Origin: Apostichopus japonicus
Lineage: Eukaryota > Echinodermata > Holothuroidea > Aspidochirotida > Stichopodidae
Reading direction: 5' to 3'
NCBI RefSeq assembly: GCF_037975245.1
Contig: NC_092564.1
Location: forward strand, 11,505,984 to 11,569,983
Length of the DNA stretch: 64,000 bases
A program made the position numbers and the translations under genes. Of this stretch, positions 16,426 to 48,703 are shown piece after piece. The notes under the pieces are model-generated. The model saw only the letters and a list, made by a program, of their open reading frames with translations. It was not told where the DNA came from and did not search any database. Position 1 is the stretch's first letter. The number at the start of each line of letters is the position of its first letter.

Positions 16426-16852
16426 AATTAATTTTGCATGTTAACACAAAGTTTTCAATAACACGTGAGAAAGCAAAATATTTGACATTTAAAAAGACGT
16501 TAACAGTAATACACCCACCTATCTCCGGCGAGGATGAAGGGGTTCCCTCAAGAGGTTCCGCGTCTTCAGACGTATCCCTGAATCCATAGTAGCAAACCAA
16601 AATAAAAGCCGTAGCAACAATAAGCACCCCCAGTACGATGAAGAAAGTTGTCCAGCCACTTTTCGACTTTGTTTTACTCTCATAACTTTCGGCTGGAACA
16701 CTCATTTCATATTTTTCGTTCTTTTCCATGATGTACTTTAGAGAAACTAATTCTGCGTTCGACTCGACGGGATTGTGTTTATTGCATAAGTCAATAAATT
16801 TTAGATTCGTACATGCGTCAAGGTGTGCTCGAGTCGAAAGGTCTGTTGTCAA
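1..16852 (-). CDS. Membrane-anchored Kunitz-Kunitz-GH81 endo-beta-1,3-glucanase (17 exons, 3' end outside window)
   Basis: GH81 enzymes hydrolyse internal beta-1,3-glucan bonds (laminarin, curdlan, fungal glucan). Exons, 5' to 3': 16852-16519, 16156-15986, 15090-14923, 14582-14364, 13414-13220, 10907-10668, 8973-8841, 8015-7658, 7134-6925, 5297-5072, 4421-4225, 3811-3653, 2899-2664, 2409-2234, 1602-1445, 715-398, 172-1. Every junction is GT/AG and the phases agree throughout, giving about 1,182 codons from the ATG at 16729 without a stop. Order: tail and transmembrane helix (about residues 27-49), Kunitz 1 (71-127), Kunitz 2 (128-183), GH81 from about residue 225 onward. GH81 marks include PLVRG, LPHH, the DHHFHIGY motif and [11 protein letters not shown] followed by QEESASE. 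There is no cleavable signal peptide; the helix would act as a signal anchor with the enzyme outside the cell. The first five junctions are all phase 1, which suits shuffling or alternative first exons. The enzyme family is very likely; the exact 5' start is less sure. Confidence 0.9.
398..715 (-). CDS. GH81 C-terminal core exon
   Basis: Encodes [12 protein letters not shown], completing the QEESASE-AIN motif across the intron, then [20 protein letters not shown] and [13 protein letters not shown], all typical of the GH81 end region (MLATExRaxxxYW, GIQxLPitPxS). Acceptor tcctag|GCC, donor GACCAG|gtaag (phase 0). Confidence 0.93.
1445..1602 (-). CDS. GH81 catalytic exon 2 (Glu pair)
   Basis: Encodes [28 protein letters not shown] and QEESASE. 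These match the GH81 run RDIANPS, yFP, DWYxGHSWAxG and NQESSSEA. Two Glu four residues apart sit where the family's proposed catalytic base lies, so the active site looks intact. Acceptor cgcacag|AT, donor AGTGAG|gtacg. Confidence 0.95.
2234..2409 (-). CDS. GH81 catalytic exon 1 (Asp of DHHFH)
   Basis: Encodes YDTVWGGM and then [17 protein letters not shown], the strongest GH81 fingerprint (YDxxWGG ... YNDHHFHYGYfxYA). The Asp of DHHFH is the proposed general acid in the family. Donor AAAGAAG|gtgagt, phase 1. Confidence 0.95.
2664..2899 (-). CDS. GH81 helical-core exon
   Basis: Acceptor acccaacag|CAC, donor TTCAG|gtatg (phase 2). It encodes [20 protein letters not shown], matching the GH81 'aYf.GKxlxrxxrLalIAxe' helix of the (alpha/alpha)6 barrel, and ends VENVFR before the YDTVWGG of the next exon. 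Confidence 0.9.
3653..3811 (-). CDS. GH81 exon after LPHH
   Basis: Exactly 53 codons, phase 0-0, acceptor ctttcag|GAT, donor TTGAAT|gtaagt. It encodes a segment with [12 protein letters not shown] and continues the GH81 frame. Confidence 0.85.
4225..4421 (-). CDS. GH81 exon with LPHH motif
   Basis: Encodes [10 protein letters not shown] just before its donor CATCAC|gtgagt. This is the conserved GH81 segment 'ellmfALPHH'. Acceptor ttgctag|GT (phase 1), phase 0 at the end. Confidence 0.9.
4508..4707. repeat. (TA)n followed by (TATATT)n microsatellite
   Basis: About 200 bp of pure TA dinucleotides passing into a 6-bp TATATT unit, inside the GH81 intron between exons 5072 and 4421. Confidence 0.97.
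5072..5297 (-). CDS. GH81 central exon
   Basis: 226-nt exon starting after a long polypyrimidine tract and ttag|ATA; donor GCAG|gtaaat (phase 1). It encodes CPWVPETT, then a strand segment (KFVAYFDKD) and [11 protein letters not shown], in the position of the GH81 'f.G.vqlA' segment. Confidence 0.83.
6332..6540. repeat. 99-bp tandem duplication plus partial third copy
   Basis: The block starting catgttttacttttactgct recurs at 6431 with only a couple of changes, and the start of a third copy follows at 6530. It lies in a GH81 intron. The apparent ORF across it is only this repeat. Confidence 0.93.
6925..7134 (-). CDS. GH81 exon between beta-domain and central region
   Basis: 210-nt phase 0-0 exon, acceptor cctctag|ATT, donor AAAGAG|gtacg. 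Frame continuity places it in the GH81 region before the central core. Confidence 0.83.
7658..8015 (-). CDS. GH81 beta-domain exon (largest)
   Basis: 358-nt exon with acceptor cctgcag|G and donor GACGAA|gtatg (phase 0). It encodes a beta-rich segment with several cysteines and aromatic residues. It lies immediately upstream (on the minus strand) of the smaller exon at 7134 and its phase matches exactly. Confidence 0.85.
8039..8497. repeat. Minisatellite, about 7 copies
   Basis: Units of about 55-75 bp built from 'gggttcaatgcttcaatg', 'cttctactggtataat' and 'aaacaattacaat'. Copies differ mainly in the number of 'tcaatgct' sub-repeats. It begins 24 bp beyond the acceptor of exon 7658-8015, within that intron. 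Confidence 0.95.
8841..8973 (-). CDS. GH81 beta-domain exon
   Basis: 133-nt exon, acceptor tcgacag|AG, donor CAGA|gtaag (phase 2). The phases match both neighbours, completing an AAG codon upstream and a GAG codon downstream. It has no ATG, so a simple ORF scan misses it. Confidence 0.83.
9121..9338 (-). mobile_element. tRNA-derived SINE with (TA)n tail
   Basis: On the minus strand the tRNA-like head starts near 9338, with an A-box-like TAGTCTAGTGGTTAGG and a B box GGTTCGAATCCC. The acceptor-like ends pair 6 of 7 (AGCGTCC/GGAGGCT). The anticodon arm does not fold well, so this is a SINE head rather than a tRNA gene. A tail of about 35 bp follows, then a TA microsatellite of about 90 bp (9121-9212). 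A second copy of the tail lies at 49345. Confidence 0.8.
9602..10573. mobile_element. Non-autonomous hAT-type DNA transposon (972 bp)
   Basis: Terminal inverted repeats CACTGGCGGATCCA at both ends, flanked by a perfect 8-bp target duplication GGTAACAC (9594-9601 and 10574-10581). An 8-bp duplication and a CANTGGCGGATCC terminus are typical of hAT elements. The interior has no long ORF, and long G and C runs lie next to the left end. It lies inside a GH81 intron. Confidence 0.88.
10668..10907 (-). CDS. GH81 beta-domain exon with PLVRG motif
   Basis: Encodes [16 protein letters not shown], matching the GH81 signature in which a pLvrG segment precedes a 'vTaxy' strand. Acceptor tttcag|GA, donor ACAA|gtacg (phase 1). 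Confidence 0.87.
13220..13414 (-). CDS. GH81 N-terminal beta-domain exon
   Basis: Phase 1-1 exon of about 65 codons that continues the open frame into the GH81 beta-sandwich region. Acceptor acacag|CT, donor TCTG|gtatg. On its own it has no diagnostic motif; the assignment rests on frame continuity and position. Confidence 0.8.
14364..14582 (-). CDS. Linker and start of GH81 module
   Basis: Phase 1-1 exon of 73 codons between Kunitz 2 and the clear GH81 core. The segment [10 protein letters not shown] fits the place of the conserved IPTNKFYxNL motif that opens GH81 domains. The first part is a cysteine-containing linker I do not recognise. Acceptor tcgacag|AC, donor TCGG|gtaag. Confidence 0.8.
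14923..15090 (-). CDS. Kunitz domain 2 exon
   Basis: Second BPTI/Kunitz domain, also a single phase 1-1 exon, with six cysteines in canonical spacing and the motif [11 protein letters not shown]. The P1 residue (VGPCDA) is Asp. The close match to domain 1 in exon limits and in the EGN-NNF segment points to tandem duplication. Acceptor gacag|TG, donor GGAG|gtgag. Confidence 0.93.
15986..16156 (-). CDS. Kunitz domain 1 exon
   Basis: A complete BPTI/Kunitz domain in one phase 1-1 exon. Six cysteines have the canonical spacing 8-15-7-12-3, with the family motif [11 protein letters not shown] around the fourth. The P1 position after the second cysteine (SGPCEA) is Glu, not the Lys/Arg of trypsin inhibitors. 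Acceptor cgttag|GC, donor CAAA|gtaag. Confidence 0.93.
16238..16425. repeat. TA-rich microsatellite
   Basis: Alternating TA with occasional interruptions, between the Kunitz 1 exon and the proximal anchor exon. Confidence 0.95.
16519..16852 (-). CDS. Proximal first exon: cytoplasmic tail and transmembrane anchor of the GH81 protein
   Basis: Encodes a polar N-terminus, a hydrophobic helix ([20 protein letters not shown]) and a short acidic/proline/serine stalk, ending G|gtgggt in phase 1, which fits the Kunitz exon at 16156. Three in-frame ATGs are possible: 16852, 16729 and 16705. The one at 16729 (context atcATGG) gives a tail of about 26 residues, closest in size to the other anchor exons. 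No clear TATA box was found upstream. Positive residues (KTKSKS) just before the helix favour an N-in, C-out orientation. Confidence 0.75.
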
Positions 16853-19800
16853 TACCTCTCTGGACTAAATTGTCAGGACCAAACTACTGTAGTAAATGTC
16901 AAGATTTACGTAACGTTGTTATCTCGCTGATGACACCATTGTAAATCGATACGAGGTGACTTTTGGACCTCGATAAGAAACCAACAAATAAAGGAAATTT
17001 ATACCAGCGTGCAATCTCCAATTCGTGACCTTTGTCACTTTTTGTGATCTTGAATCCAATTAATCAATAAATATGTATTCATCATATTTAGCGTTACACG
17101 ACTTACCAAACAGAGAATTGGAGACACAAGTCTAATAATAATGACAAAATTTAGCATCTAAACCTCCTTTATTTTTACCTTAGTTTCTCAAATGGGGAGG
17201 AATAATTTCCTAACCATGTGTGGAAATATTTCACAAGTTACGTTGCGCAAATATTATTCCCCTCCTTCAGGTCTTCGTACACCCTCCCGCCCCCCCCCCC
17301 TCCACCCCTCATCCCATCTCATAATTCATAGCTACAGGCCAGTGTTAAGATCAACTCAAAAGAAGGTATTTACCTACATTACTAACAAACAAAAAACACA
17401 AAAGAAATGGTGAACAATCCTTCAATTCACAGTATGAAGCAGAAGGTGGGTTTTTGAAGCTCAATTGTCTTCTGAATACCAAAATGCATCATGTTCATTA
17501 TGTATATATAGAGTAACATAACCATACACTAAAATATGTTTTACACCGTGGTCGTACCAGCATATTGGATATTAAAGACAATGTGCACAGAGCACAATCA
17601 TCTCACTCCTTCCCGGGATCTAATATTAAAATATTGGCGACGATGAATGAATATGTCATGTATCATTACCTAACCCCACCCCTCACCCTTCCCACCACCA
17701 CTGAATCCTCCCATCCCCACCTCCACCCCTCTCTCTTCACCTCTCTCTCTCTCGCTTTCCAGAAGACAACGCATCTAATAAACAAAACAAACTTGTATAC
17801 TTTAAAGGAGAGATAAGAATATAATGAGTACGGTTGTTTACACTGTGGCTAAGCGTACAAGTCAAGAAACTAAAGCTTGTTACTGTATGTATATATGCTG
17901 ATGTACTACACTCAAGGCCTTTGTTTGTACATGTCGAAAAAAAAGCAGAACAGTCAATAAACAGTATAATAAAACAACTAACCGTACGACAAGACAATTA
18001 ACAGAACAAAACAGTAATGTAACGTAACATTTATGATACAATTATATAATATTGATATACATATCTGCATCAACATCGTCACCGCCAACAATAATTTTAG
18101 TCATCAATGAGTATTCCAGAGATTTCTCACATCTTCAAAAAACCGGAATGGCTCTAAAAACGTAACGAGCACTCATTTTCTTGTTCGTTTTTGTCCCTGG
18201 ACTTTAGCACATCGAGACTACAATTCTGAATTAAGCCCCTCTGAGTGGAACGAAGCAAATAAATAATTAATGTCTGAAATAACTATAGTGGCATTACTAG
18301 AACCATTTAATTTTTAACTAAAACAAATTAAATTTGCTCAGTTTGAAAGAAACAATTTTCGAGCTGTATTTTCACATTGTCGAATGGTATACACAGTGTA
18401 TATGTTCAAATGATAATTTCTTTGAACAATATTAGTCATTTTGCAGTTCTTATTGCGCAAACGTATCTAGGATGGGGAAAGTTTTCTGTTAAATTTATCA
18501 TTTTCGGCATTCATTCATTTGACTGACTTCATATAGTGTTGCTAATATACGTGACTTAATGATTAACTAGGGTTCATAAATTGACGAGACTTATAAACCT
18601 CCATTCGTAACGGTATTGCTGAATAGTAAGTTCTTCTCGTTATGGTTTCACGTATAGGACTTACTTCATATGACAGCCAAAGCAGAGTTTCCCCCGTTCT
18701 TCAAGATCATTCTGCCCTCGTTGCCACGTAACATTAAAAACAATGATAATAAGACCTACAACAAATATGTCTTGAAGAAGACCAGCCTTCTCTTGTCCAG
18801 GCTCAAGCAATCTTCTCCCCGATAAGAAGATAACACGGTTAGTAATCGCATATCATGCTACAGGACAGGATAATACTACCTCTATCACAAACTGAGATAT
18901 GACTTCGAATATAAGTTGATCATTATTTAGGATTAAAAGTTCTTATTTATGATTTAATTGAAACGTCTTGGTGACCTCAAAGGTCATATTCCTAAAGGAA
19001 AGATGTTCTTTTAATGTTTATTATCCATTTTATCCAGTTAATAAGCGCCAATTTTCAAGGAGTCTTATGCTAATTGTAAGCGTTATACAGGCGTCTGGTA
19101 TTAATGGGGCTCGCAGTGCTAAATATCCTGTCATCAACTCAAGCAATTAGAGATACTAAATTGGTATGCTGCTTTAATTAGCAATGTCGCAACAAATGTT
19201 TTAAGTGCAGAGAAAACTCCCTGCTCTTCCAAGAAAGGGCAACAGGTTCCATTATATAGACCTACCACATTTTCATATGGCGGAGATACCTAGCCTATAG
19301 CAAACTTTTGCAAAAGAATCGGGTGTGAAGTTGTTTTTTAATTATTGTAACATGAAATGTTATTCATTAGTATGTTTATGTTTAATTTTTTTAGGAAACA
19401 GTGGAATGTCCGGAAGTCTATAATTTAATGGTTTTCTTTCTTTTCTGACACGGTTACATAAAGAATTGCATAGAAAGTTACCCCCCCCCCCCCACCGGGC
19501 CCTTTCGCCTTCTTTCAGTCTCTCTATCTGTATCCTCAATTTCTCGCTTTCCAATCTGATTTGCAATATCCCATGAGAACGATGAAGGTTGTTGTGGACC
19601 CTTTGCGTTCCACATTGTGGAACGCCAAAAGGTCACATGGTACGTTATCGTGTACCTGTTTATTACCATCTTGTGTAAGCACGAACATGTTACACAAAGT
19701 GAAAACATACGCACGATTCACATGCAGTCCTTAGCCTATACTTTTTTTATCGTTGTTTTTTCTTCTGCACCGATATTTCTGTGTAGACATTTCAAGAGTA

Positions 19801-20930
19801 GCTCCGATACTCGTCTCCCGGGTTCCATCTCTCGAAAAATCCTGGAATCCGCCACATGTATATAAAGCATGTTTGTCAGAATGTTCTGTTGTAAGACCCG
19901 ACACAAGTATAGTTTACAATTTGAGCTGAGAAATGGTAACCAAATTTACCTATATATAGGGTTGGCTTGCACATATGAAAGTCAACACCAGGTATATTAA
20001 GCACATTTGCAGAGATGGTAATGCACTTATTAAGTTGTTAGGATGTCTTTAGTTTTGATTACATGGTCGCTTCAAGGAATTAATACAGCTGTTAACATGT
20101 AATTTAGTTAAAATTAGTGAGCCTATTCATTGAGCATTACAACGGATTGAGTCACGAAGTATTGTTTGTATAGAGGGAGCTAGTCTTCAACTCAAATTCG
20201 ATTTTACATTTATTTCTAAGAGGTTTCTAGGCAAAATATCTATAATTTTATTTAAATAGTACGCGTGGCTCATTAATTTGTTTCACAACGTTTCGGGAGA
20301 TTTGTGTGATAAACTTGTACCGTACGTATTTAGTTTCCCAAAAGGGAAAACTATTGAGTCACTCTTACCAACCTTGCAAATTGTGAGGGGGAACGAGGAT
20401 TGCAAAAGTCGGCAATGACTATAACCCAGATTGCAAAGTCGGTTAGTACTATTACGGTTAGGTTCGTCCAACACGGTAGGATACAGTTGTAATGTAAGCC
20501 GAAGCCAAAGTGAATTAATCAGGTCACACATCAGGAGTCTATGCATGCTAAGTTCTTTACTACCGCCCTCACAACCTTTCGGGGAAACATTCTATATAAA
20601 ATAGTTTTGACTATGGACTCGTTCGTGTTCTTTAGAATTTGTTCGTTATCAGTAAAGCCCATGAAATTACGAGGTTTTATAGGTTGTAATTGTTATAATC
20701 AGGGTTGTGAAATTATACATTTGAACAAACGTAAACAGGGTTGAGCCCGAGCCAATGCTAAAAACAAATGAAATATGCGGCGAATTTCACATGTGGGTTT
20801 ATACACTTGAGACAATCGTCAATAGTGCAACGTTATCAAACATAGGCTATATATTGCTCGTGCGATGGACGGTGTTAAGAAAATGAATGTTAACTAATTT
20901 TATCATTTTGTCTGTACTTACAGGGCCGAT
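16853..20930. other. No gene seen (upstream or long-intron DNA)
   Basis: AT-rich sequence with pyrimidine-rich patches (17270-17310, 17680-17760) and a poly-C run near 19480. No coding exon with credible splice sites was recognised on either strand. If the distal anchor exons are used, all of this is intron. Confidence 0.5.
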
Positions 20931-21151
20931 CCAAGATTTCCCCATTTATGGGCGTATGGGGATCTCCCCAGATGTTCTTCTTTTAGATGTGCAGTGGTGT
21001 ATTCTGAGGCATATTCTATAAATTAGGTCTATAATTAGGTCTACACGCAAGGTCTTCAGCTTATAACCACATGTAATATTTTATGTGGGCTGGGATGGGG
21101 AGCCAGGGGGAGGGGGGCGGTATATACACTGACCCATTGGATCCGCGCCTG
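20931..21151. mobile_element. Small hAT-like MITE, degenerate ends
   Basis: The left end CAGGGCCGATCCAA and the inverted right end CAGGCGCGGATCCAATG are imperfect inverted repeats of the hAT type. The interior carries the usual G-rich stretch. Only a short CTTA match is seen as a possible target duplication. Confidence 0.5.
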
Positions 21152-22918
21152 CTTAAGAGTTCTGCTTATTCGGTTAATTATTGAATCAGTAAAATATACA
21201 TGAGCTCAAAAACTCACGTCGCATTTACCCCGCCCCAAACAGTCCCTGGTTTATTTGCTGTCTCTTCATTTGACGACTTATCATTCACGATAAAGGGGAA
21301 GGGTGGGGGGGGGGGGGGGTTGTGGATCACCCAAGTCACACATGACACGAAATCCAAGAGATTTGATCCACTCTCAACGCTAGTCCAGGACGTACATCGA
21401 GACTGTAATTGGATGATCATGTGTGGAGGTATTTCCCCGCTAAATTAATTTACATTAATAATGTAAAGAATCACGTGGTTCAATAAAGGTTTGCCTTTAG
21501 TCAACACAGTCTTATATAGTTTCGTATAATGTCAGAATTTTAATATATGTCGCACAGTCATAAAAGTTCACACATTTGGTCAAATGTTTTGAAAAGTCAC
21601 AGCAGCGCTGCAAAAACTCAACATATGCAGAGGCAAAAACAAACACACCGTAGTATATAAGCTTAACACGATTGAAAAAAAAAACGAATTCTGTACTAAG
21701 GCTTGTAAATTGGTCGATGATAGTTCTTTGCAATCGTTTTAAGTTATTTTACAACACCTTTATCTCTTTTTTCTTTTTATTCATTAATTTCTATATATTA
21801 ATTTTTATTTTCATCTGTTCTATTATGTTAGACTCACTTTGTGCGTGAATTTTGATAGTTTCCATACTTTGTATAGTAAATATCTCAACAATCCACCTCA
21901 TTAGCTTAACTAAATCAGGATTTCTCTCAAATAGTGAGGAAGCAGTTCCAAATGTAGGTATTCTTTTATAATTCCTTTTAAACTGTGACAAATAGGCTAC
22001 TTATCTGAAAAGAAATTTAGTATAGAGACTATAAATTTCCCAAATGGTATACCTTATACGTAAGTAACGTTTAGGTGAACTGATTTTTGGTGGGAGGCTG
22101 TCTTGGTATTTTTAATCTAGTATTTAATTTGGGCTAGAATCGTTAGTAAAATTTATTTCTTTCCCCAGCCGGCACAAAAACCTACTTCAAATCTTAAATG
22201 TCAATATAAACTATCAAAAACACAACACCTACATACAAAGAAGGTGGCAGTAAAAATTGTTTGTTTGGGCCACACTACCTTAGTGAAATACTGTATGTTA
22301 TTATCGTGAACAAAACAACAATTATAACGATCTGTACGATTTTACGAAAGTTACAAAAGGATGATATCATTAGGTGTAATTGTGCAAGTATAGTTGTACT
22401 CTGATACTCGGGATAAAATAAAATGCCATATCCTGCACTAGTATAGCATAAACAAGAGGCCTTTGCCAAAACGGCTACCAAAAACGAACGGGAATATTGG
22501 AATATTACGCTATGTAATGTCTCGGCGATATATTTTCTTCATCAGCATAGCCTAAATAACAGAAAAGTCACATTTAACGAAAAAATAGCTTAAAGAAAAC
22601 TTTGCCTAAGGCAGACATTGTATTATTTGTTATTACTGATGTAATTACTCATAGACGGCAACATTAAAAATATTAACAATTAATTTTCTTTTTGTAGATA
22701 CGGTATATAGCCATATGATATATACAACATAATTAATTGTGTAATTAATTTAGCTTCATATGTAGTAAAGACAAAGCTACAACTCCCTCATTTTTCCTGA
22801 GGCAGTTTCGTACTTTAAACTGCTTCTTTCATTATAAAAGTATCACGCCATCATTTTCAAGATCTTGAAATGATAGTGCGCTGCTGCTACCACGGCAACG
22901 AACGGCTAGTAAAATTCA

Positions 22919-23137
22919 TAGATGAACAGTTTTTCTGTAGTTCCCTCCGTTTATATGCAAATTAAGTTCACATCCGTCTTTGTTCCTTTGCTGGTCATTT
23001 GGTACCCCGGTGTTTATGGTTGTTATATTGTCAAAACGTAAAAGCATATTATTTCTGTCTTGATGGGATGAGAACCTTTTATTTACGCGATTTTGTAAGC
23101 AGTTGTTGTCTTCACCACACGGTAGCTCAGGGAACCT
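22919..23137 (-). CDS. Candidate terminal exon, unknown product
   Basis: A good acceptor (gttgctatttcag|G) opens a frame of about 72 codons ending at TGA (22917-22919 region). The product is polar, with three cysteines (FPELPCGEDNNC at the start). It needs an upstream exon ending in phase 2. The MAKL anchor exon at 26744-26929 offers such a donor (ACGTG|gtaacg), which would replace its stop by Trp. The frame is also open for about 20 codons upstream of the acceptor, which weakens the case. No known family was recognised. Confidence 0.3.
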
Positions 23138-23139
23138 GA

Positions 23140-25555
23140 AATAGCAACAGAAATAAATATTGATATAGCTAAACGACTTTGCATTCAGTTACGTAAACAC
23201 TAGCCCAATTTAGGTACAAATACTGCAAAGTGCGTTCACGAAAAACATATTGAAACACAATTTATATACCAATTAAGACTCATGAACAAAAGGAAACTTC
23301 AATATAGGATATAATAACAATGGTACTTCAGATTCATCAACCGTCAACTTAAAAATAAAGTGTAACTGTTGACTCTAACCGTGCTGAGAGTAAACTGTGT
23401 TTGATCATATAGTCATCAAACCATGTAAAGAAACTTGACTTGAAGACCGCCAGGAAATTTCTTAAATGATCGTATAGGAACAATATATCTACGAACCTAT
23501 TACACAGCGGGATTATGTATGAAACACTTCAAAGAATTAACATTAACTCATGATATGCAAGGGTCTTGTGTAACAAACGCAGTGCTATGCATTCAGATAG
23601 TGGGTGTTAATTCGTATATCTAGTGCATTTGTTGGAATATGAAACTCTGGGTAGCGGACTAATTATAATTTGCTCTGAGAGATTTGCGGACATTCCTGTT
23701 GCTTCGGAGCGCAGGTGGACAATAGGACGGTTCGCACGCGGATCTTCTGCTGCCTGTTAATAAAAACTCACAACAACCCAAATAATGCGGCCCGCCTTCT
23801 TTTTTCTTGATCTAAACGTGATTCAATTTATCCTATGAAATTTTTAAATGTGGAATTGCAACATGTACATGAACTCGCCGCCATAACGATAAGATTGAAC
23901 AAAAAGTATAGTGTTTTCCATTAATGTCACAAAAAAAAAAGATTTAAAGGTTGACTTTAAGCAGAATTTTGTTGCTATGCCAAATTGCAACAAATATCAA
24001 AAAATCAATCAACGAACCGATAAACAAATCAATCAATAAATGAAACAATGGACATTTGAGTGTTATCTTGTTTGTACCTATACTCAGATACTTGATATAT
24101 TCATGTTTAAGACAATGCTAAACGTCTGGGATGCTCCTTTAAGTCTTAATCAATGATGACTTCGGCTCTTCAGTCCTGTTATAAAATTTTAATGTTAATC
24201 CTTTTGTTTTAACTCAACCAATGTTCCTTTAATTTCATACCGCAACATCGCAATTACATATATGATATCTAATACAAATCATTTGAGTTTCTAATAGAAT
24301 GCAAACATGTTATTTCGAGGAATTTAGATATTTGTTAAGTATATTGCGTTTTATATTGCCGACGAGGACCATGACCAAAAGTGCGCTACTGCCCAGCTAC
24401 TTTGGTTGATCGGCCACTGATGTTTCAAGTGCCCGAAAGTCTAAAAGTCTATGGTATAAAAGTAAAAGCTGGGCTTAAATTCCCAGAAAAGCGTTCAACA
24501 GGTAAACTGTGTGTAGGCCTACCACACTTTCATAGCAGAAACACTGAACCTATCTTACGTTGCATTGACGGACGGATCTGATGTTCACCGTTGAGAAATA
24601 ATTATGAGCTTATTGCTATAGATACTTAATAGAGTTCACAGACCATTGATGTGGACATTTGATCGAATCTGATAAGACATTAATAAAATATAGTGCTGAT
24701 ATCGAGCTCCAAGAATTGAAAAAGAAGAATATTAGAGATTATTCTTCATTTGTTGGCCTAAAGACTGGTTTTGACCAAGGAGAGGGCTGCTGTGACGTGT
24801 ACCGACAGTTAGTAGCAAATCCAGTTTGCAGAAAATTCGATACTTTTATGGATGATAAATTGTTCTCTACTTTTAATTTGAAAACACAATGTTAATATCG
24901 TCCTCCCAACTGACACTACATATGGATGTTTGCATACGAACCTCTTTTTTACACCTGAAAACCCCATTACTACGTATAAGGTACAACATGATAGGTGGTA
25001 TGTGACTTCATCACGCTTAATGTTCTTCGAAAGATTTACTTTCCTTTTATAGTAATATTGCTATTAAATGTATTTATACATAGAAATGTGATACATTGGG
25101 ACTGTTTGCACGGTTGCCAAGGATTTCTTTTTTAAATTTAGAAATTCATTGTAAGAAATTTTATAATTCCATATGCCTTTTGTTATCGTCATTAAGTTTT
25201 TGAACAGTTAAACGAAATAACTTGTCAGTTCCATTGCCACGACTAGGACATCACTGACTCTACTGTTGCCAGATGCATTAATCTGTAGTATGTTTTTCTT
25301 TGTATATTACCACACTACAGAATGATATATCAATGTAGTAGGACCTAAACAATGATGACGAACATTCCTAGCAATTCCTGTAAACAGTCTGTTATATCAG
25401 CTTTCACCGCTGAAATATCCCATTAATATTTATCCCAAGTCTAGTTTCCGACAAGAGATAAAATGGCAACTAACCACCCTTATGTGCTTATCCTACTAAT
25501 CTTAATTAGGTTATACTGTTTCTATACTTACATTCGTAAAAGGTTCGGTTTTTCA
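23140..25555. other. No clear gene
   Basis: Mostly AT-rich spacer. A GC-richer island at 23590-23760 has short open frames on both strands (see findings). A 78-codon plus-strand ORF at 24659-24895 has no supporting splice or homology signal. Confidence 0.4.
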
Positions 25556-25747
25556 CTAATCCGTGGTATCGGTTCGCGTCAGTCCGGTATACAAAATGTA
25601 AGCAAAAATTAAACCGATTAATAGGAAACAAAGCGACACAATCAGACTGGTCCCTACATTGGGTTTATTTTCTAGGTAATTAGTCGATTTGCTCTTATCG
25701 ATATTACCACTTTGTGAGTGAGATGGGTTCATTTTCAACTTCGCCAT
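25556..25747 (-). CDS. MAKL anchor exon A (63-residue single-pass membrane peptide)
   Basis: From the ATG at 25747 this reads MAKLKMNPSHSQ, a polar tail, a helix (LIVSLCFLLIGLIFAYILY) and TGLTRTDTTD followed by TAG. The layout matches the other anchor exons: tail, helix, then G-L-T. A strong donor (ACGAAT|gtaagt) lies about 30 nt past the stop, so as read it encodes a 63-residue membrane microprotein with introns in its 3' UTR, or else a decayed alternative first exon. An ATG 13 codons earlier is also in frame. Confidence 0.5.
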   Translation of the reverse strand: MAKLKMNPSHSQSGNIDKSKSTNYLENKPNVGTSLIVSLCFLLIGLIFAYILYTGLTRTDTTD

Positions 25748-26743
25748 GTTCCTTTTTGTCCACCTATATATTATTTTCTCGCCCAAGTTGTGTTGTTCGT
25801 TAAACTATAAGAGACAGTCTCATGTATTACATGTAAATGGATAAGTATACGGGGTAACATGTTGAACACGCTAAACCTATTATCTAGTTTGGCGTTCATC
25901 TTAATTGATTGTTAGTAATTTAAGGCGTGTTTAACTTGAGTAGATCATCAACTAGATTCGTGTTTGTCTAAAGACTTTTATATGGTCTGCTCAAGAAGCG
26001 ACGAATTTGTTTGAACGAGTCTATTTCGATAAATTAAGGAAGTATAATACAGGTTATTTCTTTCAAAAGTAAAAACAACATATCAGTATTCATTAATCTT
26101 CATATGGTGGAAATTCGTAGAGTCTGTTCTACGCTTATTCCAGCAATCGCAAACCGTCTATTTTCAGAATAACATTCGCTATAGGTTTGGGTCAATCTGT
26201 CAGTCAATTCACCAAAGTTGGTCTAAATAAAGTATTTGTAGTTATATATAGCTAACATGATGATTTTAGTGCTGATTTGTACAAGCAAAAATTTTCAACA
26301 AAAGGTTTTGCATATAAGATTTTGAATTCGAGAATACGAAAATAATATTTCCGAGAAGATATATGATAAAAAATATGGACGTAGTACAAACCTTGACCGA
26401 AAATTACGATCTACCAAAGTTTAACACTTAAACCGTCAATGTTTACATAAAATATGCAAACCCACAACAACGTAGCGAAATGTAAAGTTTTATGTTAGTT
26501 CCCACAACCACCCTTCTACTCGATTGCAAATGATTTTCTTGCGTGCACATGTCAAATAAATCATATAGTCTCTTTGCCGGGGATTTCAGCCATTCGCCCT
26601 ATCTTGCAATCTTAGAAATGTTATTTACAGTCGTGGCCTCCGATATCTTGCTTGAAATAAATTACTTAAAGGCTACTTGTTAAATTTTGTTTTACTTACT
26701 TTTTCGGTTAGAATTTTCTTTATATGTTTTCCAGCTCGTCCCG

Positions 26744-26929
26744 TTACCACGTGTCCGTTAAACCAACGTAAAGAATCCACACTATGAACCCAAGTATAAC
26801 CAACAGACATATCAGAGTAAGGGAGCTGGCAGGTAAATTACAAGAATTGTCAAGTTTATATCCGTGACTTCCATTGTTTGACTTTTTCCCACTTTCAGCT
26901 CCTGTAAATGCGGTCTCTAATTTCGCCAT
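26744..26929 (-). CDS. MAKL anchor exon B (61-residue single-pass membrane peptide)
   Basis: ATG at 26929. MAKLETAFTG, a polar tail, a helix (LTLICLLVILGFIVWILY), then VGLTDTW and TAA. It is a paralogue of the unit at 25.6 kb: same MAKL start, nearly the same length, same GLT plus T-D-T end. A phase 2 donor (ACGTG|gtaacg) overlaps the stop, and a stronger gtaagt lies about 45 nt beyond it. Whether it is spliced or translated as a 61-residue peptide cannot be settled from sequence. Confidence 0.5.
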   Translation of the reverse strand: MAKLETAFTGAESGKKSNNGSHGYKLDNSCNLPASSLTLICLLVILGFIVWILYVGLTDTW

Positions 26930-27026
26930 TTTTAGATTTATTAGCGTACGTCGGTTTCTGATATTTTTGTGGTTCCGTTAAAGTAGTCGAATACTGTGAT
27001 CGAAATGAATTAAAATCAGTGACTGA

Positions 27027-27032
27027 TTTATA
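27027..27032 (-). promoter_or_regulatory. Possible TATA box for anchor exon B
   Basis: Minus-strand TATAAATC about 100 bp upstream of the ATG at 26929. AT-rich context makes chance matches common. Confidence 0.25.
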
Positions 27033-30904: not shown

Positions 30905-31310
30905 AACATGTCTGCTTGCAACAGAACCGACGTAACGTCCGGTCGGAGGACTATCTTTAACAATCGTGCTTGCAACTGAAACGACCGACTGTTTTCAACA
31001 TTCTTGCTGATAGCCAACAGAATCGACCGTGTTTAATAGATCTCCTTGAATATGACTTATGGGCCAACTGAACTACGGTCCTTTACCATTCGATCCTATA
31101 ACCCTACCGACCGACCGTCTTTAACATTCCTGTACATGACCCAGGAAACCGATGGTCCTTAACATTCCTGCTTATTATCCAGCCGACAGATCGTTTTTAA
31201 TATTCCTGCTTGCTAATACTATTAGTCAACTGTCCACCTCTTTAACATTCCTGCTGATAACCCAGCCAACCGACTCGTCACAGTTAATATCCTGCTAATA
31301 AAACCGCAAA
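30905..31310. repeat. Degenerate repeat, about 55-bp unit
   Basis: Recurring 'ctttaacattcctgct', 'gataacccagccaac' and 'cgaccgac' blocks, about seven diverged copies. Confidence 0.85.
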
Positions 31311-32285: not shown

Positions 32286-32516
32286 CCTGTATGGATACAG
32301 GAACTTTCTCCATCTTCTTCCAGCTCTCCCTTCTCCTTCCGGTCCAGGCATCGTCACACCAAAGTAAATCACTGTCGCGTATACGCACGCAATGATGAAA
32401 ACACAGAATACAACTATGTATGTTGGTCTATTTCCTCTTTGCCACGCTGGCTTCATCCATATCTCAGCAACCTCTTCGTCTTCCTCCTCTAGATCACCAC
32501 TACCGATGCTCGACAT
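32286..32516 (-). CDS. Anchor exon C (acidic tail and transmembrane helix)
   Basis: ATG at 32516. An acidic tail (SGDLEEEDEEVAEIW), then a basic stretch, a helix (YIVVFCVFIIACVYATVIYFG) and VTMPGPEGEG leading to a strong donor CAGG|gtgagt. That donor is phase 0, unlike the phase 1 of the distal anchor exons, so direct splicing to Kunitz 1 would shift frame. A weaker phase 1 donor (TTTG|gtgtga) follows the helix. A TATA-like element lies about 40 bp upstream of the ATG. Likely an alternative first exon or the start of a separate type II protein. Confidence 0.6.
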
Positions 32517-33350: not shown

Positions 33351-33369
33351 ATTGTGTAAAAGTAAGTTG

Positions 33370-33408
33370 GCCTGACGTTTCGATCCTAGCAGGATCTTCT
33401 TCAGAGGC
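33370..33408 (-). ncRNA. Degenerate hammerhead-ribozyme-like motif
   Basis: Minus strand: CTGAAGA core, stem II GATCC/GGATC with one extra A before it, GAAA, palindrome ACGT and GTC, closed by a GCCT/AGGC stem I. This has the layout of the minimal, dimer-type hammerheads known from Penelope-like retroelements, with a one-base insertion. A second, broken copy lies at 42957. Confidence 0.5.
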
Positions 33409-41178: not shown

Positions 41179-41335
41179 CGAAAGTACGAAAGATTGGCAT
41201 TCCCTCGGTAAGGCCATACCATAATACAACGACAATAACAGCTAGTATCATTAAGAGACAAATTGTTACTACTATTCCCGTGTACCCGAATGGATGGTAT
41301 CCATCGAAAACTTCTACCTCCTTATCAGATGGCAT
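41179..41335 (-). CDS. Anchor exon D (PIFRTFG type)
   Basis: ATG at 41335. Tail MPSDKEVEVFDGYHPF, helix (IVVTICLLMILAVIVVVLWYG), then LTEGMPIFRTF and donor TTCG|gtaag in phase 1. Splicing to Kunitz 1 (GC GGT AAC TGT) completes Gly and keeps the frame. It is clearly paralogous to the exons at 45.1 and 48.6 kb. Inferred role: alternative N-terminal anchor for the GH81 protein, across an intron of about 25 kb. Confidence 0.7.
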
Positions 41336-41895
41336 ATTGAGTAAATTGAAAATTCCAATTAAAACAAAGGTAATTCTACAAATCAAACAGCTTTATTCGG
41401 TATATTCAATGATCAATTCAGACCCAAATCGATGCGTTTAGAAGATTAGCCTAATGAAAACGTTACTTGTAAAATGGACAGAGAGACGGACAGCCTTCTT
41501 ATAATGGTCACGAAGGGGTGCTCAGTTATTAATAATCACTCAAGCAGTCCACACGATAAATTAGGATGGCATAAGAATTCATATAAGGAATTCGTCGTTC
41601 ACACGTTGGTCTTATCCCATCAATTTTGCATATTGAGTTTAGCCAAGACTGACCTATAAGTGTGCAGAGTTTCTACTTTCATTTGGTATTGGTCACTATT
41701 TTGATGAATATTCATGAAATTATTACTAGAAATAATTCAGATGAAATAGTTATATACGGGTAAGTGTAAAGACAGAATTGTATAATTACTTGAGGATATT
41801 TCTACAATTAGAGAATTCCGACCGTTAGTTGTTACAGTATTTGACACGGGAGTTTAGCCTGCAATGGATCATCCGATAGGTGAATTCCGAAAGTG

Positions 41896-42172
41896 CAAGG
41901 GCGGTGGAACCGGGGGGGGGGGGGCACAGGGGGCACGTGCCCCCCCACTTTTCCTCAGGTTAAAAATGTGCCCTTTTTCTACATAAAAATTGAGGTGTCT
42001 CAAGTTAGCAAGAGGCCAGGGAACCAGAATGAACACTCGGGAAGGGCCGTTTCCGGGCCATCTGAGGGGTTTGTAAAACCAAAAATTTTCTTGTACGCTC
42101 CGCGCCAACTGATGGTGGCGCTCCGCTCACATAGTCGTGCATACAACTTTGCAAATCCTGGCTACGCCCCTG
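41896..42172. mobile_element. hAT-like MITE (277 bp)
   Basis: The left end CAAGGGCGGTGGAACCGG and the inverted right end CAGGGGCGTAGCCAGGATTT are hAT-type termini. The interior has the usual G-run and GGGGGCACGTGCCCCC palindrome. No clear 8-bp target duplication. Confidence 0.65.
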
Positions 42173-42956
42173 ACTTTTAATGAATTTCTGTGGGTCAAAC
42201 TCAAAGCTATTTCGAATGGAAAAATTTGTAAAGATATTAACGAGAAATAAACTCTAATTCCGAAGATTCCTACATTAGCAACTAGCATGATTTCACCTCA
42301 TTTTGTCTCAAAAGAAAACTTGTTCCTTGTTTCCCATTTTGCACATTGGATATTGCAGTGCTAGTATGCATATTTTTCTTTAGGGTGGGGGGGGGGGGCG
42401 TTGATGGAGTGATGTGTATACGCAAATAAGATAATACAATAAGAGTTATAATGGGTACTAAATGTAAGGCTGCATCAGTCCAATCGAATTTCTGCAAAGT
42501 GCCCTTTGATGTCGGTGCCCCCCAGATTAAAAGTGCTTCCGCCGCCCTTGCGAAAGTGTCTACCCCCCCCCTCGTCCACCACCCTTCATTTACATTTCGA
42601 AAAAGCTTTCTAAGTATGTCTTTAACTGCAGTGTACTCTTCAAATTAACTACATTCCTTATGTTCTGAGGTTACTAACAATTATCAAATATATAAGGGGG
42701 TGAGGGCGGGATGAAGAAGGGGTGTTTCCTCTTACATTACACTAAGAAAACGTTTGGGCAAAATGTTACACAACACTGAAGTGATGATGCGACTGACGTC
42801 ACAGAAGTAATTAACTATACAAGCTGTCTGAGTTTTGATGTAACTATTCTCGCTATAACAAATGTTTGAACAGACTCCATATTGTTCCTTGACGTTGCGT
42901 GAGGATCATAAAGGGGTTGAAACACTTTAAAAACATCACAGGCTAATAAAGTTAGA

Positions 42957-42999
42957 GAAGGCCTGACGTTTCGATCCTAGCATGATCTCCTTCTAAGTC
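42957..42999 (-). ncRNA. Broken hammerhead-like motif
   Basis: Same orientation and sequence family as the motif at 33370 (GGATCGAAACGTCAGGCC retained), but the CTGANGA core has mutated to TAGAAGG, so it should be inactive. Confidence 0.45.
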
Positions 43000-43751
43000 C
43001 AACATTGATCAAGTCTGTAACTATGGAAACAAAATACAACACTTAATCGGAACTTACGTACATTTTGCATCCAAGCACCCTCCATTTTCACAAAATGTAA
43101 CCAAGGGAGGAGTGGTCATCCCTCCTCCTAATATCCCTCCCCCACGACATAACATCCCATCCCCTCTCCTCCCCTAACGAATGCAAACCAGTGAATGCCC
43201 CTCTGTTTTCATATACCAAACATATTGAGTTTACTATTCATGCTATGGTACTTTTGTGGATAGGTAACAGAATTTCAGAGGGTCTTTACATATTAGCAAT
43301 AGCAACTTGAGTAATACAAGCGGGTAGTATAACGTTCACGCGAACAAGATGCCATGTGAAGGAAAACTTCATCGGTCCCTTATTGTTTCATGTAACTATG
43401 TCATTAAGTCACTGGTGCAATCATACGACAGGACATGATTGTTTGGTGTAGCAATAAACAGTAAGGTAATTGCATTAAAGTGATATTCCAGTGGGATCCA
43501 ATGTAACATATACGTAGGAGAAAGTATTGCGGCCCTAAACACGAGATGTGGTTGATTGAATGTAACCTAGGTTCTTCCGGGAGTTGTTTACCGTAGATGT
43601 TATCACAACAGATGTTCTTTAAAAGCTTTACTTTCATTTAATAACCAGCTTGTAGAATTATCCTTAAAACGTAATACATTTGGAATGTTAATCGGAATTG
43701 GAAATCTTAAAGTGTTCTTGGTATCTTGCATTCCATCGCAATGATGCAACT

Positions 43752-43880
43752 TGTTTGTACATATATTTTGTCCTCTGTGAATAAGTCAGTTTGATATGTT
43801 ACAAAAACAAACAATATGTTTGACATACACTTTGTCCTCTGCGCATAAGTGAGTTTAATATGTTATAAAAAATAAATCAA
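43752..43880. repeat. Tandem duplication, about 65 bp
   Basis: 'tttgtcctctg.g.ataag' to 'aatatgttataaaaa' occurs twice. Confidence 0.8.
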
Positions 43881-45031
43881 ACCACTTTCAGTTCAATTTT
43901 CGTCATGAATATAATTCACTCTATTAAAATAGGTTGTAATTTACTTTTATAAGTAATAGCAAACATACATGTTATTGACTTTACATAATAAATACACCAT
44001 AATACACGCCATGGCTGGTATGGAAGGGTGGGAGGTGGGGAGGTTGGGAGGGTTCGGAAGGAAGGAGTGGTGCAAAGTAAAATCATGAAGTGAAGTATAC
44101 TATAATAAGTCGTTCGTTCATGAATCCTTTTCAGTTCCTACCCCCTTACCCCTCCTCATTCACCAAATTTCATTACTGAGTTCCTGCCTGCTCAACGGTT
44201 AACTCCTTCTGTATTGATTCTCTCTGCAAAGAAATCTTTTAAAATTGAAACAACCTTTAGTCGATTTAAACTTTGAAAGCGTATAGGAAGTATGAAGCAC
44301 AACTTGTCCCCTGTCACGATCTCATCATAGTTTCAATCTCTGTTTTACGCAATTGTTTCAGCAAGGGACCTAACTTCCCACCAGGAACAATCCTGATGCT
44401 AACTTTGGTTATGCTTATATTAATTTATAATATATCTGTAACAGACAGCGCACCTTTGCCTGTTCATGTATATAGCCTACTTGTTCAAAAGAGGTAGCGG
44501 TATGGGGTGGGGGGGGGGGAGCGGAACGAGGGCGTGCAAGTAGACCGACAATTCATATCCCTAACAAACTAATATCAAGGTATCATGTGTTTATATAGCA
44601 ATGCGATATTGTTACATCGGTATACACTATATAAGATATATATTGTATTTATATACTGTGCTCGCAAAGGCCTTTCCATTAGACTGGAAAACTAAGTAGT
44701 CTTTATTATTTTTAAAAAGCTTACCTCGTTATAGTTACAGTGTTGTAGTGAACACCATGCAGGCAGGAGCGTCAGGTATGTTGTCGATAAATTCTCAGTA
44801 ATATGATGGATTATACAAAGTATCGTATTGCCTAAGTTTTAGACTATAGGTGTGAGTTTATCTAAGGTTTGAGATCCAGAGTGGCAATACATACTTGCAA
44901 GAAAGTAAGTTATTCGTTAACCATGACATCTCATAGATGGCCAATGATTTGGCAGGACACTATTTAGATTGAATTATCTACTGTTATATTTCAGTATGTC
45001 TATAATAAAGTACACGAAAGACTCTGCTTAC

Positions 45032-45167
45032 CAAAGGTACGAAAGATAGGAAGTCCTTCCGTAAGTCCATACCATAACACGACTCCCGTAGTGCCTAAAA
45101 TCATTAAAATGCATAAAAACACTACTACTTGAACACTAGAGATCGATCCGTTCTCATTGTCGGCCAT
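45032..45167 (-). CDS. Anchor exon E (PIFRTFG type)
   Basis: ATG at 45167 (MADNENGSISSVQ), helix (VVVFLCILMILGTTGVVLWYG), then LTEGLPIFRTF and donor TTTG|gtaag in phase 1. It is 136 nt, the same length as the unit at 48.6 kb. The stretch WYGLTEG-PIFRTF is almost identical to anchor exon D, while the tail differs. A TATA-like box lies about 120 bp upstream. It was too short for standard ORF cut-offs. Confidence 0.72.
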
Positions 45168-45287
45168 TATAAATATTATTGAATCTGACAGAAACTTTGC
45201 TTGAAATCTGCTCTTTAATTTGGTGTCTCTGTTTGTATCAAACAGTAGCTAAGACCAAACTAATCCAGCTGATGGGTAGAAACTGCG

Positions 45288-45295
45288 TTTTTATA
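45288..45295 (-). promoter_or_regulatory. TATA box candidate for anchor exon E
   Basis: Minus-strand TATAAAAA (GACTATAAAAACGC), about 120 bp upstream of the ATG at 45167. Confidence 0.45.
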
Positions 45296-45299
45296 GTCT

Positions 45300-48200
45300 C
45301 AACCTCTTCTTATACATAATTATGTCTGTATGTCCTTGCACCGTATTCGTGGTTATCTCATAACTAAGATATCTAATTAATAAAACCTATAATAGTCCGA
45401 CGACTTTGTGTTTATAGTGAATATTCAAGCATATAAGTGACCAAACGGCACCCTTGTAATATTTATCGTTACACGTGATCTTAATAGGCGGGACTTTTTG
45501 TTGTCCTATTCAAGGTCAAGGACAGCTTAATTGTATTCATAATCGAGTGAACTGCTGCTTCCAAGCTTGTTATTTATTGTGTGAATATTCATGTCCTAAA
45601 TGACCACGGGTATATAGTCATACAAATTATATTTATCAGTTAGTTTACCTTAATACTTCTTAAATGGCTATAGATTCAAGGTCAATTGTAGATTAAATAA
45701 TCGTAGAGATAGAAGAGATTACAGCATCGTTGCTTCATTGTTCATTTTAATATGAACAATGTATTATGTACAGAGAGCTGCACAACACTGTTCTTTCGGC
45801 AACTGTACAATAGGTGAATCATGCACTAACATACGTGACAGTTTGATTCCACATTTATGCTTGCCAGTAAAAAGCAACGTATATACTATACGTTTGATTA
45901 TATAATCGGTCTTTCGTTTTTTTTAATTAAAGTATAAATTATCGCATACTATATGCTAGATAAACAATTTGTCATGAGCACATGACCTGCCCCGCTGACG
46001 TCTTGTTTAGCTATTCATATATAAAAAACATTATGAATTCGCATACTCGTGATTTTTATATCAATCACATAAGAAATGTTATCACTGGGAAATGGCTGTA
46101 TTTCAAAAAACTAGGTTGATCACACCCCCGAGTCCCCTGGCACGGCCCCTCCCACACAACAAAGGCTATATATATATATTATGATTGCTTCCTTGAGCGC
46201 AGGCAGTGCGCCTTATAAGGGTGTCCGTTTCTTCCCCAGAGACAACATTTATGAAATGTAACAAACATGCTCTATGAGTACTAGCTATATTATATATCCA
46301 TATGAGTTAACGATATGAGAGTATAGGCCTACGTTAGGCTTTTGTAATGACCTGTTGCATAAATGATAAAGCTGGGCATCTGGGATATAGAGTTTGCGAA
46401 TCCATATTAAAATCGAACGTTTGGAAACGTATGCAGTCACGTTGCCCGCATAGCGGACGTGCATTACTTTTGAAACCGGTTAGCTGCATCCGTTAGAATA
46501 TGGTACATATCCACACCTGCTACGATTGTAAGCAGGTTATAAGCAGCCACGTAGCCAGCATACTGACTCGGAGGGGCACGAACAGGAGAGAACAATAGTT
46601 GTGTCCTGTAACTTGTGACGTTTGGTGCAGCATCATTATACATCATGGCTGTACAGACGAGGGACGTTAGTCTCCCTGGGTCATAGAGGGGCAGTGAGGG
46701 GGGGGGGGGGTGGCGGCCTCTGTGTCCCGGCCATGCTACGGGCCTGTGGAAACTTTTTTATTTAAGGTCATTCCGTTTTTACAAAGAATGACGTATAACC
46801 CAGACCATGGCAACGGACGGTACCAGTTATGAGTAATGATGCGGGAAAGGAAAGAGTGAAGAAAACATGATCAGAATAATTATCAATTCCGGAACGAGTA
46901 TTGTACGAGTCAGTAAGACTGTAGATCAATCACTAGTCCATTCTATGGAATAGCAATATGTTGTGCTGACCATGCAGAGTCTGCATAACCGACAGATACC
47001 ACCATGGAGAAGCTAGTTTAGGTACTGCGATATTGCTATATATATCACAACAAGAAATCGAAATATTTTCACTCCCTGTATGAAATAGTTGGAATTTCTT
47101 GTCTTAAAATTCGATTATTAAATCTTTAATACGTTAAATAAAACATTTAAAAATAAAATTGGAAGAATTCACTATAGATATGTTAGTTATGATCATACAT
47201 AATTATTACTAATTAGTAATGAAATTGTTACGTATATATAACTTTTGCTTTCACTTGCTGTTATAGGGGAAGATAACGTTGAAAAAAAGGCTTGTATATT
47301 TTACGGTTCAAGTTCACTTTTTTCATGAAAATGTCTGTACAACTGCTGACCATTTCGACGTAAATAATAATAATGAAAACATTTACAAAAACTATAGCAA
47401 ACACACCGTGTGTGTATATGGTCAAGAGAGGGTATATGTTACAGCAAGTTCATCATTTCATATATGCGTTGCAATATACACTTCTTATTTAAGTCTTTCA
47501 TTCTAGCCTGACAATTAGTGAGAATATGTCGACACAATGTTATAACACATAGTGAGATGGTTATATCAGAATAATCACATAACTTGTTAACACCAACGCT
47601 TGCATGTCAATGAAAAACCGATGTCATGCCCGCCCTTTACTCAGGGATCCAAACTTAAGATATTCTGATAAAGTTAAAGACCTGCTGTCGAGACTGAAAG
47701 CGCAAAGAAGTTATGGGCTAGAAACGGGATTCGAACCAGATCATTACCTATGGATACACGTCATGTTTTGCAGGACATTGTTTCGATTACCGTTCAGTAT
47801 CCAACCAATATTTCTTTGCACTTCCCACGCAGTAACCTTTTTTTAGGGTTATCTGCTGTTATGTTAGTATGTGGCACATGCCTTATGATGAAATTAATAA
47901 TAGTTATAAGCACCACCTTGCGTGGACCTATAATTATAGACCTTAATATTGTAGCCTTAATATGCCTAAGAAGGCACGTTTTGACCTCTACATTTAATAT
48001 ATTTTTCCGGGGGGAGGTGGCGGGGGTCTCTCCCAGACTCCCAAAGGACCACAGACACATTTTCTTAAGTGGCTTGATCCGTCGCTGCTACCTCAGGTAT
48101 TACACTAACCTAAACTAATCTAGCCACCCATACTTGCACATATACGATAAATGAGCACCACGGAAAACAGTTGCGATATCCCGTAGAATAACGCCTCGCA

Positions 48201-48567
48201 AAGAAAATGAACACATTACCACACCAAACAAAAAAAAGAGTGTATATATATATTTATATTTAGGCCTAAGTAAGCATTTCTCGACTCTTGTAATGACTAA
48301 AATGTGTCAACAGTCTCAACTTGTTGCATGCATTATATTTACATTCATTTCCCTTTTGTTTTCCTTTTCTTGATTGTTGCTTTGGTCATTACAACTTATA
48401 AACAACATTTGGTTTTCTTGTGCCAATTATTATGTGTACTTTTGTTACATTCTATCACAACCCCCCTTTATTAGTTTTTGCATGCATGATAAAAAAATAT
48501 AACACCAACAAAATATGTGGAAGGTTAATGAATAAATAATAGTATATATTGACGTGTTTATACTTAC
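45300..48567. other. No gene seen; hAT end fragments
   Basis: AT-rich spacer. Possible hAT terminal fragments sit near 46680-46755 (with a poly-G run) and 48000-48096 (inverted end CAGCGACGGATCAAG). A B-box-like GGTTCGAATCCC on the minus strand near 47725 has no matching A box. Confidence 0.4.
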
Positions 48568-48703
48568 CAAAGGACCTGAAAATCGGTAGCTCATTGCCTT
48601 GAACTCCCCAAACGGTTATAAAAACCAAGACACCAAGAATAACTAGTACACTCAATAGAACAATCAGCGTCTGACCAGCATCAGATTCACCCGAGTCACC
48701 CAT
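48568..48703 (-). CDS. Anchor exon F (PIFRSFG type)
   Basis: ATG at 48703 (MGDSGESDAGQ), helix (LIVLLSVLVILGVLVFITVWG), then VQGNELPIFRSF and donor TTTG|gtaag in phase 1. Same length (136 nt) and exon phase as anchor exon E. It is the most distal unit found; further units could lie elsewhere only if shorter or more diverged. A TATA-like box lies about 200 bp upstream. Confidence 0.72.

Follow-up and report, generated by a model that had tools for sequence, protein, structure and literature searches.

Clusters of multiple variable first exons include UGT1, UGT2A, GCNT2 and the protocadherins, and the UGT1 clusters also contain pseudogene and relic exons (PMC1885805). The vertebrate GCNT2 (IGNT) locus is the closest system to the one reported here because its variable exons carry a transmembrane segment: first exons that resemble one another stand in tandem, every one with a promoter of its own and an N-terminal transmembrane segment, and are joined to common constant exons, and in both cases the product is an enzyme of sugar metabolism (PMC1885805). 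The present locus lies in the sea cucumber Apostichopus japonicus, in a window of 64,000 nucleotides (the whole stretch of DNA analysed; positions 11,505,984 to 11,569,983 of NC_092564.1, assembly GCF_037975245.1). Seven minus-strand units encoding membrane anchors had been claimed in a first-pass annotation of this DNA, and all seven (U1 to U7) are present, between a Kunitz-GH81 gene and the next gene upstream. As in a first-exon cluster, they are first coding exons, paralogous and arrayed in tandem in the same orientation, and we give a probability of about one half to the reading of the locus as a set of alternative first exons upstream of one constant Kunitz-GH81 gene. Judged from the DNA, the animal may be able to exchange the anchor by which the enzyme is kept on its cells.

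Seven anchor units and one constant gene

The seven units are arranged as follows (window coordinates):

16519..16729, minus strand: U1, with a 27-residue tail, a helix, YYGFR and an acidic stalk; the gene model begins with this exon, whose donor is in phase 1
25556..25747, minus strand: U2, a 63-residue anchor open reading frame (ORF) ending in TAG, with a strong donor at 25532, 24 bases past the stop
26744..26929, minus strand: U3, a 61-residue anchor ORF ending in TAA, with a strong donor at 26700, 44 bases past the stop
32286..32516, minus strand: U4, an anchor exon whose tail is acidic in its distal part and basic near the membrane; strong donor, phase 0
41179..41335, minus strand: U5, an anchor exon with WYGLTEGMPIFRTFG and a phase-1 donor
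45032..45167, minus strand: U6, an anchor exon with WYGLTEGLPIFRTFG and a phase-1 donor, under purifying selection with U5
48568..48703, minus strand: U7, an anchor exon with WGVQGNELPIFRSFG and a phase-1 donor

Each unit consists of an ATG, a tail of 12–35 residues, one hydrophobic helix, an aromatic residue and G-[LVF]-[TQR]. The post-helix segment had been described as G-[LV]-T or PIFRxFG; YYGFR of U1 matches neither form, and the shared motif otherwise stands. An in-frame stop is found within 150 bases 5' of the ATG in every unit, which makes the units look like first coding exons, and taken together the seven seem to be genuine first coding exons from a single local family.

The pattern was compared with chance on both strands. 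Between 16.4 and 55.1 kb the minus strand contains 12 ORFs with an ATG and a helix, seven of them with the post-helix motif, versus four and none on the plus strand, and in 200 third-order Markov copies the helix ORFs had a mean of 3.2 (maximum 8) and the motif-bearing ORFs a mean of 0.01 (maximum 1). Because the motif was defined after the units had been seen, the strand and simulation contrasts outweigh the pattern itself; the post-helix motif of U1 is likewise rare in simulation (two of 640 simulated helix ORFs). Across 104 kb surrounding the locus, 7 of 25 minus-strand helix ORFs carry the motif versus 0 of 12 on the plus strand, and these seven are U1 to U7. An A at position -3 precedes all seven unit ATGs versus one of nine among the other helix ORFs of the 38-kb gap between the two genes (Fisher 0.0014).

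Six of the seven units (U1, U2 and U4 to U7, with U3 not used as a query) were searched against the whole genome. U5 and U6 match each other with an E value of 3e-9, with no other match above chance for either; for U2 the only other genome match, U3, lies at a distance of 1.2 kb (E 0.3, 37% over 59 residues); and no significant match besides themselves was found for U1, U4 and U7. Anchor-like matches elsewhere in the genome (L003 to L005) were rejected as being at chance level (E 0.7–1.5), and in a search against Pfam at E values of up to 1 the units gave sub-cut-off matches only. So far as seen in these searches, the anchor-exon family appears to be local to the Kunitz-GH81 gene.

The gene itself, on the minus strand, probably encodes a membrane-held Kunitz-GH81 β-1,3-glucanase, a glucan-cutting enzyme. 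Its model is complete, with 17 exons (U1, K1, K2 and 14 more) bordered by AG and GT, and its reading frame of 1212 residues is open throughout and then ends in TAA, the last coding exon extending 89 bases past the window start to this stop. The constant exons form a single set, downstream of the units and in the same orientation:

15986..16156, minus strand: K1, Kunitz domain 1 and first constant exon, with a phase-1 acceptor at 16156
14923..15090, minus strand: K2, Kunitz domain 2, a constant exon
14582-14364, 13414-13220, 10907-10668, 8973-8841, 8015-7658, minus strand: first five constant exons after K2
7134-6925, 5297-5072, 4421-4225, 3811-3653, 2899-2664, minus strand: next five
2409-2234, 1602-1445, 715-398, 172-1, minus strand: final four, 172-1 being the last and continuing past the window

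In the 1212-residue product, Pfam recognizes the GH81 C-domain (6e-48, 164.3 bits), two Kunitz domains (1e-39) and the GH81 N-domain (1e-10, 41.4 bits), with both GH81 scores above the cut-off of 25.6, and the GH81 domains lie in the 14 constant exons downstream of K2 (1..14582, minus strand). The DHH and EES/SE segments of GH81 structures are retained, as YADHHFH and EESASEAIN of the product align with YSDHHYH and QESVPESVN of 4k35; we take these two segments to hold the catalytic Asp and Glu residues of the family. When the genome (671 Mb) was searched exon by exon with the GH81 N-domain family, considering the best candidates only, this gene was the only match found.

GPCEA (15986-16156) and GPCDA (14923-15090) place Glu and Asp in the two Kunitz domains, at a position that is Lys in bovine trypsin inhibitor, and because of this replacement K1 and K2 are unlikely to inhibit trypsin. 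The intron before K1 (16157-16427) is open in the frame of K1 and contains in-frame ATGs and an F/L-rich stretch. If retained, it might supply a signal peptide; a pyrimidine-tract effect is more likely, and a translation start within this intron was set aside.

Selection, reading phase and promoter signals

The substitution pattern of U5 and U6 bears on whether the distal units are coding. Over 25 codons, synonymous changes number 13 in 18.3 sites (pS 0.71) and nonsynonymous changes 7 in 56.7 sites (pN 0.12; Fisher 3e-6), and over 35 codons pS is 0.74 and pN 0.24; by this measure U5 and U6 have evolved as coding sequence under purifying selection. U7 is more divergent from both (pN 0.49–0.54, pS 0.77–0.94, 25 codons). 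The likeness of U5, U6 and U7 reaches the splice donor and ends there: U5 and U6 are identical at 32 of the last 40 exon bases, at five of six intron positions from +1 to +6 and at 25 of 94 from +7 to +100, and the two pairs with U7 agree at 17 and 19 of the 40 exon bases, at five of six at +1 to +6 and then at 25 and 26 of 94. Such an ending suggests a donor in use, preceded by a segment that matters. In the introns and the 600 bp upstream of U5 to U7, no similarity above shuffles was found, except between the upstream regions of U5 and U7 (0.035).

The phases assigned in the first-pass annotation, namely phase-1 donors at 16519, 41179, 45032 and 48568 and a phase-1 acceptor at 16156, are correct, and phase 1 occurs at every acceptor from K1 through the sixth exon after U1. 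Four of the seven units (U1, U5, U6 and U7) thus match the K1 acceptor in phase, and U1, besides belonging to the family, opens the complete Kunitz-GH81 gene in frame as its first exon. The same annotation had called these donors good; they do exist, but the wording was generous, as they score 3.5 (U1), 3.6 (U5), 3.6 (U6) and 5.7 (U7) in a matrix built without U1, whereas the 15 constant-exon donors score 7.4–12.2 with themselves in the matrix and 5.3–11.4 when each is left out in turn. Stronger donors are found at U2 (8.3), U3 (9.8) and U4 (8.7), yet these lie past a stop or in another phase.

Upstream of U5 to U7 a palindrome, TGAATATTCA, recurs:

41705..41714, unstranded: TGAATATTCA, upstream of U5
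45418..45427, with a second copy at 45582-45591, unstranded: TGAATATTCA, upstream of U6
49011..49020, unstranded: TGAATATTCA, upstream of U7

The 104 kb contain eight copies versus 0.4 expected from dinucleotides, and four of the eight lie 251–415 bases upstream of U5, U6 (two copies) and U7. Since the motif was picked out only afterwards, the fair comparison is with random triplets of 500-base segments, of which 0.9% have an 11-mer in common and 2% a 10-mer (3000 draws). No 9-mer or longer word is common to the upstream regions of all seven units, only U5 to U7 sharing any. TATA scores are 0.009 for U6, 0.03 for U3 and a weak 0.07 for U7, with the other four not notable (combined 0.01), and upstream of U1, U2 and U4 nothing notable was found.

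Under the alternative-first-exon reading, every first exon would have a promoter and a start codon of its own 5' of the constant gene, and U1 would supply the standard type II form of the glucanase. Transcripts starting at U5, U6 or U7 would be spliced past the intervening units to the phase-1 Kunitz exon at 16156, giving products with the same ectodomain and a different tail, helix and membrane-near segment. U2 and U3, with a stop before the donor, would give a short anchor peptide only, and U4 would need an adapter exon or would not feed the Kunitz-GH81 gene. One interval considered as an adapter for U4 (17774-17696; open, phase 0 in and 1 out, in frame to K1) is purine-rich and of low complexity, and such intervals occur once per strand; it was given no weight.

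Contrary evidence and rival explanations

Several observations weigh against the alternative-first-exon reading, including some of the exon candidates described below. Three of the seven units (U2, U3 and U4) are unable to join K1 directly in frame; U4 joined to K1 is in phase 0 and reaches a stop after seven residues. The helix of U1 shares only 3–8 of 26 residues with the helices of the other units, because of which its kinship rests on the short motif and on position. The TATA evidence is weak, with U1, U2, U4 and U5 not notable. The charges around the helix are also discordant: over 15-residue flanks (tail side/C-terminal side) they are +1/-4 for U1, +1/-1 for U2, 0/-1 for U3 and +2/+1 for U4, so that the type II charge rule is obeyed by U1 and U2 and by one charge in U3 and U4, whereas U5 and U6 have -2/0 and U7 has -3/0. 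The 15 residues before the helix contain one Lys or Arg in U5 and none in U6 and U7, and tails with a net charge of -2 to -3 facing a net-neutral C-terminal flank break the positive-inside rule. From these acidic tails the N-terminus is predicted to lie outside and the enzyme in the cytosol, and the simple charge rule thus predicts that an enzyme anchored by U5, U6 or U7 would be on the wrong side for an extracellular role.

The earlier interpretation of variable first exons for a constant ectodomain is therefore upheld in part, by the family, the in-frame U1, the phase of U5 to U7 and the lack of private exons in our scans, and lacks support from the units unable to join K1 directly in frame and from the charges of U5 to U7. 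Confidence in it is held at one half because the stops and phase of U2 to U4 and the charges of U5 to U7 do not fit; for four of the seven units a role as alternative first exons is the best explanation, though an unproven one, and three need another. The stops in U2 and U3, the other phase of U4 and the absence of a notable TATA site at U1, U2, U4 and U5 would also be expected if the distal units were relics of the first exon of the gene, left by old tandem duplications and now unused or decaying. This explanation is improbable, since the U5/U6 protein is kept while synonymous sites are saturated, and the start context and open helix are preserved in all seven units.

Whether the distal units could feed other exons was assessed with an exon scan trained on the Kunitz-GH81 gene, in which the leave-one-out totals of the 15 constant internal exons were 16.6–30.2; candidates were judged against the lowest of these totals for a true exon, 16.6. 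When left out singly, 14 of the 15 pass the thresholds of the scan (the acceptor of e7 fails), and a separate earlier exon scan also recovered 14 of 15. In the 38-kb gap U4 itself scores 29.3, and besides it three candidates of at least 16.6 were found on the minus strand and three on the plus strand, with no strand excess. Over 18 kb of minus strand beyond the gene, one candidate was in range. A few same-strand candidates reach true-exon strength, and one weaker candidate is listed with them:

17774, 39407 and 26993, minus strand: gap candidates of true-exon strength besides U4
3379 bases past the window start, minus strand: candidate beyond the gene (total 18.5, 20 residues, phase 1-1)
4116-3998, minus strand: candidate inside a GH81 intron
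46735-46517, minus strand: weaker phase 1-1 candidate (total 15.0)

The former statement that no other downstream exons are visible accordingly holds within the sensitivity of the exon scans, and no partner exons rise above background. The first five candidates would be the material for an unrecognized gene in the gap, in the GH81 intron or beyond GH81, fed by U5 to U7 in place of the GH81 exons, and the acceptors at 26993 and of the candidate beyond the gene are in phase 1, as is the weaker one at 46735-46517 (phase 1-1). We give such a gene little credence: the candidate at 17774 is 75% purine and of low complexity, 26993-26950 falls within the U3 leader, equally many candidates stand on the plus strand of the gap, and for none of the ten longer gap ORFs scanned did Pfam give a family above cut-off, the best match having E 0.004 (17.3 bits versus 27). 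Between the gap and the next gene, which is convergent (an exon run on the plus strand past the Kunitz-GH81 gene, beyond the window start), GH81 is the sole gene body that can be recognized on the minus strand.

A second exon common to U5, U6 and U7 was sought by nucleotide and six-frame protein comparison, and only scattered short matches were found. A scan for phase-1 acceptors after these units, whose sensitivity is unproven because its K1 versus K2 control was one residue out of register, gave one pair over the null (score 39, compared with up to 30 in six null runs); this pair was rejected as a shared exon since it is a repeat. This 34-nt element (33369-33402 and 42960-42993, 94% identical) holds GGATCGAAACGTCAGGCC and is possibly a transposon end.

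The lack of a common second exon bears on a further rival, in which each distal unit is a small gene of its own that encodes a single-helix membrane microprotein and arose by duplication of the anchor exon, U2 and U3 being complete proteins of about 60 residues and U4 to U7 being spliced to short, mostly untranslated last exons. Under the usual 50-base rule, the stops of U2 and U3, 24 and 44 bases before strong donors, are near enough to escape nonsense-mediated decay; U4 has its strong donor in phase 0, and acidic tails such as those of U5 to U7 are more in keeping with a microprotein of N-out orientation than with a type II anchor. Tandem copies would, however, be expected to share a second exon, and none was found among U5 to U7, although short ones could escape; moreover, PIFRxFG is conserved right up to the donor, suggesting continuation into a conserved partner. 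We regard microproteins as rather unlikely. By exclusion, and because of the family likeness of U1, the GH81 exons are the likeliest partner of the units, with short or untranslated private exons as a possible alternative.

A broader form of the alternative-first-exon reading can be proposed tentatively, as a possibility on which we would not rely. The anchors would be swappable, with U1 giving a type II form, the acidic tails of U5 to U7 perhaps changing the orientation or causing cleavage and release, and U2 and U3 giving anchor-only peptides out of one common promoter array; promoter choice would decide if, and in what way, the constant Kunitz-glucanase ectodomain is held, and the anchors would evolve as a family of their own.

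In the surroundings, 55268-56353 and 58064-60996 belong to the next gene upstream, also on the minus strand. Its cysteine-rich exons are EGF-like, and it further has a helix and one long exon for a cytoplasmic part; the gene is MEGF-like by eye, and three pieces of it had no Pfam match. By eye, the ORF at 59150-59602 resembles the end of a LINE-type reverse transcriptase, likewise without a Pfam match. Repeats of about 350 bp with diverged copies occupy 50785-53222, between U7 and the upstream gene, and a tandem repeat of about 78 bp (L007) lies after the GH81 gene, about 1.0–1.4 kb past the window start. Of at least 86 Kunitz-like matches in the genome, 50 are found on one strand within about 76 kb of the contig that holds the window (C4:23.27-23.35 Mb), a very large Kunitz array.

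Comparison with known systems

If true, the locus is a new variant of the variable-first-exon clusters represented by UGT1, GCNT2 and the protocadherins. The variable exons of GCNT2 also hold much of the enzyme, whereas the sea cucumber exon holds only a tail, a helix and a few residues, and the constant part here is a GH81 hydrolase with Kunitz domains; protocadherin clusters vary the ectodomain. In endothelin-converting enzyme 1 the helix is common to all isoforms, whereas in the sea cucumber locus the helix itself would change. In the GCNT2 cluster the copies are highly similar and their splicing is established (PMC1885805), whereas the sea cucumber copies are very divergent and their splicing to the constant exons is predicted.

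UGT1 and the clustered protocadherins likewise place tandem variable first exons upstream of constant exons (PMC1885805, PMC3325998). In UGT1 the aglycone-binding domain varies and the anchor is in the constant part, whereas here the anchor would vary and the ectodomain would stay (PMC1885805). Endothelin-converting enzyme 1 is comparable as a membrane enzyme with four isoforms differing in the cytoplasmic N-terminus (PMC11515556, PMC7406796). GH81 itself has been noted in annelid transcriptomes (PMC11083476) and, as an ortholog of apparent bacterial origin, in one animal assembly (PMC12198962). In a literature search covering titles and the openings of abstracts, with most subscription papers outside its reach, no anchor-exon array for a glycoside hydrolase and no Kunitz-GH81 protein were encountered.

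The sea cucumber product belongs to GH81 by sequence, its DHH and EES/SE segments aligning with those of the fungal and bacterial endo-β-1,3-glucanases (4k35, 5xbz, 6fop and BH0236). To our knowledge, these fungal and bacterial enzymes are without Kunitz domains or a membrane anchor. The best-known variable-first-exon clusters vary what the protein binds or makes; if the present reading is true, the forms of a secretory-pathway enzyme would here differ in tail and membrane helix alone, and the gene layout would be put to another use, outside vertebrates. The locus would then also show how an animal deploys at its cell surfaces a GH81 glucanase, from a family best known from fungi and bacteria.

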